NCBI RefSeq assembly: GCF_000423425.1
Contig: NZ_AUHY01000019.1
Span: forward strand, 1 to 45,486
Reading direction: 5' to 3'
DNA length: 45,486 nucleotides
Origin: Meiothermus rufus DSM 22234
Lineage (GTDB): Bacteria > Deinococcota > Deinococci > Deinococcales > Thermaceae
The notes below the pieces were generated by a model, which did no database searches, was not told the origin of the DNA, and saw nothing but the letters and a program-made list of their open reading frames with translations. Below, in pieces: positions 172-13,680 of this stretch. The position numbers and the translations under genes were made by a program. The number at the start of each line of letters is the position of its first letter. Position 1 is the stretch's first letter.

Positions 172-2171
<2,000 letters not shown>

Positions 2172-2224: not shown

Positions 2225-2250
2225 AAAAACTCGAGGACTCGACCTCGAGT
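2225..2250 (-). terminator. Attenuator terminator of the trpBA leader
   Basis: Read on the minus strand, ACTCGAGG and CCTCGAGT form a perfect 8-bp stem around a 6-base loop, followed at once by TTTTTCTTTT. This is a textbook intrinsic terminator, placed between the leader-peptide stop and trpB. It cannot end an upstream structural gene because none lies upstream on this strand. Confidence 0.85.
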
Positions 2251-2253
2251 ACA

Positions 2254-2312
2254 GGCTCAAGCGCTGCGGTTACAGCGCTCGAGCCGGGCTGCGCCACCAA
2301 CGCTGGTGGTGC
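2254..2312 (-). promoter_or_regulatory. Two leader hairpins of the trp attenuator
   Basis: Two hairpins precede the terminator on the minus strand. The first (2312-2291) pairs GCACCACCA with TGGTGGCGC, and its 3' arm contains the tandem Trp codons. The second (2285-2254) pairs 13 bases, with one G-U, around a loop that holds the leader-peptide stop codon. The 3' arm of the second contains CTTGAG, which can pair instead with CTCGAG in the 5' arm of the terminator. That gives a plausible antiterminator when a ribosome stalls at the Trp codons. The fold was drawn by eye. Confidence 0.7.
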
Positions 2313-2344
2313 CACTTGTAGCTGCGGGGGGTTCGCACGCGCAT
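2270..2344 (-). CDS. trpL: Trp operon leader peptide, 24 residues
   Basis: This short frame runs from ATG at 2344 to TAA at 2270. It contains KWHHQRWWRS, so Trp is residue 11 and residues 16-17. Three Trp in 24 residues, two adjacent, is the hallmark of a ribosome-sensed tryptophan leader. The start lies eight bases after a -10 box, so the mRNA would begin at or within two bases of the ATG, consistent with leaderless translation. The Trp codons sit in the arm of the first hairpin and the stop in the loop of the second. I know of no reason for such a peptide other than attenuation. It is too short to be found by ordinary gene callers. Confidence 0.85.
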   Translation of the reverse strand: MRVRTPRSYKWHHQRWWRSPARAL

Positions 2345-2352
2345 CTAGGGGC

Positions 2353-2382
2353 AGGGTAGCAAGCCCCGTTGCCTCTCGTCAA
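2353..2382 (-). promoter_or_regulatory. Promoter of trpL-trpBA
   Basis: On the minus strand, TTGACG (2382-2377) and TACCCT (2358-2353) are separated by 18 bases. Transcription would start near 2346, directly in front of the leader-peptide ATG at 2344. Confidence 0.6.
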
Positions 2383-7988: not shown

Positions 7989-8136
7989 ATCTGTCCTTTT
8001 GCCTGAGAGTGTTATCCCTTCGGCGGGCCGGATGGCCTCTCTCCAGATTGCTCCGCCGAGGTCCTTTTGCCTGAGAGTTTCCGGGGCGGTTGCTCCTTCG
8101 GCGCTGGCCGGGCCAGTCTCTCCCTTCGGCGGCGCT
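7989..8136 (-). promoter_or_regulatory. Tandem glycine riboswitch
   Basis: Read on the minus strand there are two successive glycine aptamers. Aptamer 1 (about 8124-8061) has GGAGAGAC, then GCCGAAGGAGCAA, then ACTCTCAGGCAAAAGGAC. Aptamer 2 (about 8044-7991) repeats GGAGAGA, GCCGAAGGGATAA and ACTCTCAGGCAAAAGGAC. These are the signature blocks of the gcvT motif, and the short linker fits the cooperative tandem type. Glycine binding should switch on gcvP. It lies between gcvH and gcvP rather than ahead of gcvT. Confidence 0.95.
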
Positions 8137-13500: not shown

Positions 13501-13680
13501 CCTTCTCTTATCTTCCCCAGCAGCTAAACTATGCCAAGTCTCGAACGTCGTGTGCCTACAACGCTCAGCCGCCGGGCCGGAATTAGCACCTTCCAAAAAA
13601 CCCCTGGTGATGGGCAGAGGTTTCTTGTGGGTTGCTGCGGCTTCATAGGGCCGGTCCCTCCACCGCTCTGGATAAAAGAA
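13501..13680 (-). promoter_or_regulatory. SAM-I (S-box) riboswitch controlling metY-metX
   Basis: On the minus strand the S-box blocks appear in order: CTTTTATCCAGAG, GGTGGAGGGAC, GGCCCTATGAAGCC, GCAACC, GGTGCTAATTCC, and the closing GATAAGAG that pairs with the first block to form P1. SAM binding should stabilise P1 and free the downstream terminator, shutting off metY-metX when methionine is plentiful. It fills most of the 397-base gap before metY. Confidence 0.96.

Follow-up and report, generated by a model that had tools for sequence, protein, structure and literature searches.

In the 45,486-nt stretch of Meiothermus rufus DSM 22234 DNA analysed here (the window), the tryptophan synthase genes trpB and trpA lie on the minus strand behind a short leader. 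The features of this locus are as follows.

2353..2382, minus strand: whole promoter, from the sequence, with its boxes kept at the equivalent place in Meiothermus
2382-2377, minus strand: promoter -35 box, TTGACG
2358-2353, minus strand: promoter -10 box, TACCCT, after an 18-nt spacer from TTGACG
2270..2344, minus strand: leader peptide ORF, MRVRTPRSYKWHHQRWWRSPARAL, 24 codons plus stop, without a Shine-Dalgarno sequence
2309-2294, minus strand: predicted hairpin H1, in which CCACCA (codons HHQ) pairs with TGGTGG (codons WW)
2285-2254, minus strand: predicted hairpin H2, starting 8 nt after the W17 codon, with the stop codon at its loop
2250-2229, minus strand: predicted intrinsic terminator (T), ACTCGAGG..CCTCGAGT followed by TTTTTCTTTT
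957..2171, minus strand: trpB, tryptophan synthase beta, with TrpB orthologues 89-94% identical across the genus
172..960, minus strand: trpA, tryptophan synthase alpha (PF00290, E 2.4e-81), overlapping the trpB stop

The leader ATG is at 2344-2342, eight bases past TACCCT, and its stop codon is at 2272-2270 (both on the minus strand); about 57 nt separate T from the trpB ATG (2171). A sequence-only reading of this DNA had described a promoter, a near-leaderless 24-codon ORF, three hairpins and a terminator ahead of trpBA, and we found all of these in the sequence and the predicted fold, on the minus strand. Its placement of the Trp codons in the first hairpin and of the stop codon at the H2 loop also agrees with the predicted fold. 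The leader fold was better than all of 200 dinucleotide shuffles (z -4.7), and an HMM of the peptide matched the M. rufus site at E 1.7e-13, with comparable sites genus-wide. Since this match is joined by a promoter, hairpins and a terminator that are conserved in the genus, the leader ORF is not a chance reading frame. Two riboswitches lie elsewhere on the minus strand of the window: a SAM riboswitch (RF00162) at 13562-13678, and a glycine riboswitch (RF00504) at 8049-8136, directly ahead of an ORF that resembles glycine dehydrogenase (gcvP, 7990-5117).

The peptide profile was searched in 111 Deinococcota genomes, and matches were counted at E 0.002 or better. The results showed that about 82 of the 111 genomes carry the trpB leader peptide, usually in one copy each, and that the carriers belong to Thermaceae, a sister family (f4) and Trueperaceae. 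The same profile search found no peptide in two further families (f2, f3) or in a T. thermophilus-like group (L039, L048, L042, L219). T. parvatiensis, a relative of T. thermophilus HB27, is also without it. Wherever the contig reaches trpB, the peptide ORF lies upstream of it, usually with a gap of 37-220 nt. The exception in spacing is L167 (G096), where trpB is 959 nt from the peptide; an apparent DMT/EamA-type transporter gene, judged by eye from its translation, lies between them. There is one strong match per genome, except for one MAG with two near-identical contigs. Near-identical peptide copies occur at two loci of one Trueperaceae MAG (L161/L162), where an inverted repeat, TAGACAA..TTGTCTA, overlaps the peptide promoter. 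All Meiothermus congeners with a readable trpB upstream region encode the form M-[RH]-x-R-T-P-R-[SG]-Y-K-[WR]-[HR]-H-Q-[RK]-W-W, behind TTGACG-17/18-TACCCT-like boxes and an ATG 6-9 nt further on, with the hairpins and T where these were checked. One region (L017) ends before the peptide, which is present on another contig of the same genome (L209).

We then compared the 76 distinct leader peptide sequences. R4, T5 and P6 were invariant (76/76), R2 was present in 75 and K10 in 73, and the invariant residues were encoded by six codons for R4, four for T5 and three for P6. Conservation is centred on roughly 15 residues, R-x-R-T-P-R-[SA]-[YF]-K-x-x-H-Q-R-W; this block stays constant while the flanking residues vary and the N-terminal extension and C-terminal tail differ in length. 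The pN/pS ratio for codons 4-10 was 0.03 in Meiothermus, 0.08 in the sister genera, 0.24 in Thermus, 0.16 in f4 and 0.18 in Trueperaceae. These ratios, together with the freely changing codons at invariant residues, indicate that the constraint acts on the peptide; by this comparison of sequences, the amino-acid sequence of the trpB leader is under selection at the level of the nascent chain. The Trp codons behave differently from lineage to lineage. In Meiothermus, W16 and W17 were present in 15/15 leaders and W11 in 14/15, and over the 76 sequences W11 is missing from about half and W17 is variable. W16 is kept in Meiothermus, the sister genera and Trueperaceae and is Tyr in all 17 Thermus sequences; two of four sister-genus copies have the tandem WW, nine Trueperaceae peptides end directly after W16, and many Thermus peptides have no Trp at all (e.g. 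MRKRTPFAFKRRHGRYRA). The sequence-only reading had expected conserved Trp codons with drifting flanks, and the reverse was found: the RTP core is invariant and Trp codons are lost in whole lineages. The main finding is a conserved peptide family rather than an attenuator.

The start of the leader was examined in the same 76 sequences. In 71 of them a gap of 5-9 nt (6 nt in 46) separates the end of a TANNNT motif from the ATG, compared with a background of 4% of ATGs so preceded in the same loci, and in 76/76 the ATG follows the end of a -10-like box by 5-10 nt, with start sites predicted from sequence. SD-like motifs were seen in only 5 of the 76. These results suggest that the trpB leader RNA probably starts at or within a few nucleotides of the ATG, in keeping with the apparently leaderless peptide described before. 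Deinococcus deserti has many leaderless genes, up to 60% (PMC9031893), so that a leaderless start is ordinary for the phylum. The combination of leaderless initiation with attenuation had been called unusual; it has a precedent in the rnTrpL RNA of Sinorhizobium meliloti, which begins with the trpL ATG (PMC7298713), so a leaderless trp attenuator is not unprecedented.

Hairpin covariation was assessed in a 14-sequence Meiothermus alignment. All six pairs of H1 are kept and nearly invariant, and covariation is impossible there because TGG is fixed. H2 showed compensatory changes on both sides in five of nine pairs, and the stem of T is kept and nearly invariant. In 13/15 Meiothermus leaders, H2 begins 7-8 nt past the W17 codon and its end is separated from T by 2-4 nt, despite an H2 length of 26-40 nt and a stop codon at nt 58-73; the outliers in geometry are L007, L018 and both sister-genus leaders. 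Since the W17-H2 spacing is constant while the stop codon moves, H2 is positioned relative to the Trp codons and not to the stop codon. In this model, H2 is flush with the expected leading edge of a ribosome holding W17 in its A site. H2 as a phylum-wide element was rejected, as a strong hairpin is missing from this position in most other groups. An intrinsic terminator between the peptide and trpB is present in Meiothermus and two sister-genus genomes; Trueperaceae and the sister family showed none. In three Meiothermus leaders (L007, L009, L014) the trpB ribosome binding site directly follows T, leaving no room for a promoter, and T must therefore be read through there. Short degenerate repeats of the type ATAGTCCATAGTCGATAG lie between the terminator and trpB in L010-L016. 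In several Thermus loci (L038, L040, L043, L168-L177), a promoter-like TTGGCC-17-TAGRAT lies past the peptide stop and ahead of trpB; next comes a GC hairpin with a run of T, overlapping the trpB ribosome binding site (e.g. GGGCGCTTGGCGCCTTTTTTGGAG).

To look for a classical switch, leaders were folded with a ribosome whose A site held W11, W16, W17 or the stop codon, with footprints of +12, +14 and +16, in two versions: with downstream RNA only, and with upstream RNA also allowed. With upstream RNA allowed, the probability of the terminator, P(T), was 0.88-1.0 at every ribosome position in 15/15 Meiothermus trpB leaders. With downstream RNA only, L004 alone dropped P(T) at the stop codon, which is the wrong direction for repression by Trp. 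The sister-genus leader L035 gave P(T) of 0.90-1.0 throughout. The other of the two sister-genus leaders folded, L032 (G019), showed a partial conventional switch (0.16/0.59/0.59/0.96 at W11/W16/W17/stop) and was the only trpB leader tested to do so. The masked folding, in both versions, revealed no conserved antiterminator competing with T in Meiothermus. A pairing of CTTGAG in H2 with CTCGAG in the terminator had been pointed out; it is possible in M. rufus but missing in the congeners L003, L008, L015 and L016, and a classical antiterminator at the trpB leader was rejected. The earlier description as a classical Trp attenuator thus stands for its parts, a leader peptide that includes Trp codons and, after it, an intrinsic terminator before trpBA, but not for the classical switch, as T is predicted to form at all ribosome positions.

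The trpE gene of Meiothermus served as a control. It has its own leader peptide, M..GWWWPG (e.g. MVRTAQVKGWWWPG), with a near-leaderless start, in 17 genomes (L224-L240), including M. rufus itself (L238, contig C39). In most of the 17, the terminator probability was about 0 with a ribosome on the first Trp codon and rose to about 1 with the ribosome at the stop codon; weaker switches were seen in L231, L232, L233, L236 and L237. The pN/pS of the seven codons before WWW was 0.84, compared with 0.03 for codons 4-10 of the Meiothermus trpB leader. By this modelling, trpE of Meiothermus is preceded by a textbook attenuator, in which antiterminator and terminator are mutually exclusive and the flanks drift. 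As trpE passes and trpB fails both the switch test and the drifting-flank test, the trpB leader misses two defining tests of a classical attenuator. An attenuator-like leader was reportedly described at trpE of Thermus thermophilus in 1988.

Searches outside the family were also performed. Neither Pfam nor NCBIfam matched the trpB leader peptide, and the leader RNA had no Rfam match at threshold: Trp_leader (RF00513) scored 20 bits, below its cut-off of 41. The 40 genomes searched from other phyla yielded only chance-level peptide scores; the best, E 0.001 (L245), was not at trpB. Plasmid and phage records gave no peptide match, in a search with low sensitivity for short queries, and the literature searches performed turned up no account of a trpB leader from Thermaceae. 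No TrpR scored over its cut-off in the 111 genomes of the phylum, and TrpR control of trpBA was rejected on this ground. In f2 and f3, which have no peptide, CTAGAC..GTCTAG-like inverted repeats lie near the trpB promoter (L215-L218, L220-L223; e.g. CTAGACAATCGGTCTAAG in L220), as if a repressor had replaced the peptide, though with no TrpR over cut-off in the phylum.

Taken from these comparisons, the reading that we prefer, with a probability of roughly 0.5, is that trpBA is preceded by a cis-acting regulatory leader peptide (the "RTPR peptide") whose nascent chain matters to the ribosome. The RTPR peptide would be translated from a leaderless or nearly leaderless start, and its block of about 15 residues, lying in the exit tunnel, would make the ribosome pause or arrest around codons 16-17. 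Where the ribosome pauses would decide trpBA expression, and the pause itself would depend on Trp-tRNA, a Trp-related metabolite or both. In Meiothermus, where the block ends in the tandem Trp codons, H2 would sit against the front of a ribosome at W17 and T, just beyond it, would have to be read through; the folded H2 might speculatively bring the paused ribosome near the RNA polymerase at the terminator. As Trueperaceae and the sister family have no intrinsic terminator, the output step there must differ (Rho, translation coupling or RNA stability). The evidence that favors a cis-acting leader peptide is the peptide-level conservation, the position at the head of the operon, the promoter spacing, the end lengths that vary around a constant block, the W17-H2-T geometry, the H2 covariation, the necessary read-through of T in L007, L009 and L014, and the lack of both a conserved antiterminator and a TrpR over cut-off in the 111 genomes. 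On the other side, the Trp-less peptides and the promoter-like TTGGCC-17-TAGRAT before trpB weaken a purely cis role in Thermus, base pairing does not explain how a paused ribosome would relieve T, which is predicted in all states, and a small trans-acting peptide would likewise show peptide-level selection.

That last point leads to the rival in which the operon begins with the gene of a small basic peptide that acts in trans; its target would be TrpAB, RNA or ribosomes. Because of the terminator there would then be a separate small leaderless mRNA, as has been proposed for rnTrpL/peTrpL of Sinorhizobium. The peptide-level conservation in Thermus copies lacking Trp codons and the separate promoter-like sequence before trpB in Thermus would fit this, and a trans-acting leader peptide has a precedent (PMC7298713); but no copy away from trpB was confirmed, and the ends vary freely in length on either side of a block whose roughly 15 residues are what the exit tunnel would be expected to hold. 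Both points speak against it, and we consider it unlikely. Conservation at the RNA level, with the transcript 5' end kept for structure or for leaderless initiation, is very improbable. Nucleotide conservation of the ORF is indeed high within Meiothermus, and H1 explains the constant HHQ, but codons 4-10 vary synonymously in every group (six codons for R4, four for T5), and we rejected this explanation as largely refuted by pN/pS and the synonymous variation.

The remaining rival keeps ribosome-sensed attenuation at the Trp codons and gives it an unusual geometry: a ribosome at WW with H2 ahead of it would near the RNA polymerase and hinder T without a base-paired antiterminator, and the conserved flanks would be a secondary refinement. 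It would account for the fixed W16 and W17 (15/15) and the nearly fixed W11 (14/15) of Meiothermus, the constant W17-H2-T spacing, the necessary read-through of T in L007, L009 and L014, and the partial switch of L032. However, no antiterminator is conserved in Meiothermus, RTPRSYK is kept amid synonymous drift, many Thermus copies have no Trp codons, T is absent outside Meiothermus and two sister-genus genomes, and the same organisms have a textbook attenuator at trpE. We judge this explanation to be rather doubtful. Extending the cis-acting RTPR peptide to the whole phylum gives a broader proposal, which we put forward only tentatively: from within the exit tunnel, leaderless arrest peptides may sense a Trp-related signal and thereby control a biosynthetic operon. 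The sensor would be kept and the output device swapped between lineages (terminator and hairpin in Meiothermus, a device lacking a terminator in Trueperaceae), beside a textbook trpE attenuator in the same cell.

The usual view of leader peptides in amino-acid operons is that they count codons and that their other residues are irrelevant. Meiothermus combines such a codon counter, at trpE, with a residue-conserved peptide at trpB, and the latter is kept over the phylum even without Trp codons. If sensing is done by the chain itself, the trpB leader would be an arrest peptide of the Trp pathway that controls biosynthesis and is translated by ribosomes starting without a leader. The hosts are related to Thermus, whose ribosomes are favourites of structural biology, and about 76 natural variants with a built-in trpE control are available for experiments.

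Compared with known systems, the Meiothermus trpB leader resembles E. coli trpL (RF00513) and the trp attenuators of Corynebacterium and Streptomyces (PMC1262725) in having a short ORF with tandem Trp codons, hairpins and a terminator before a trp gene. Unlike in those attenuators, there is no conserved antiterminator, residues outside the Trp codons are conserved, the Trp codons and the terminator are dispensable over the family, and the Rfam score is below the cut-off. The trpE leader of the same genus likewise has a Trp leader peptide, an ATG near the promoter and a terminator before a trp gene, but its flanks drift and its antiterminator and terminator cannot form together. As in rnTrpL/peTrpL of S. 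meliloti, for which a trans-acting peptide is reported, the trp leader peptide probably has its ATG at the RNA 5' end (PMC7298713); peTrpL, however, has 14 residues and lies before trpE(G) in a functioning attenuator.

The trpB leader peptide also resembles metabolite-sensing arrest peptides (TnaC, PMC8429421, PMC10941005; SpeFL) in its length of about 20-30 residues and in conserved residues roughly 8-14 before the presumed stall site. In TnaC, too, conserved sensor and stalling residues are found (PMC8429421, PMC10941005), and a Trp-related gene follows the leader peptide. A block of about 15 residues with free ends is what arrest peptides such as TnaC can look like; the trpB leader has no family match, and its stall and ligand are presumptive. 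TnaC belongs to a degradative operon and acts at its own stop codon via Rho, whereas the stop codon position of the trpB leader varies. Compared by eye, the two peptides presumably have only a KW pair in common. The leader peptides before actinobacterial cys operons (PMC1262725) are similar in being conserved ORFs without an intrinsic terminator before biosynthetic genes, as in Trueperaceae, but they contain cysteine codons and occur in Actinobacteria. Against these systems, the trpB leader is probably a regulatory leader peptide of another sort than the textbook trpE attenuator.
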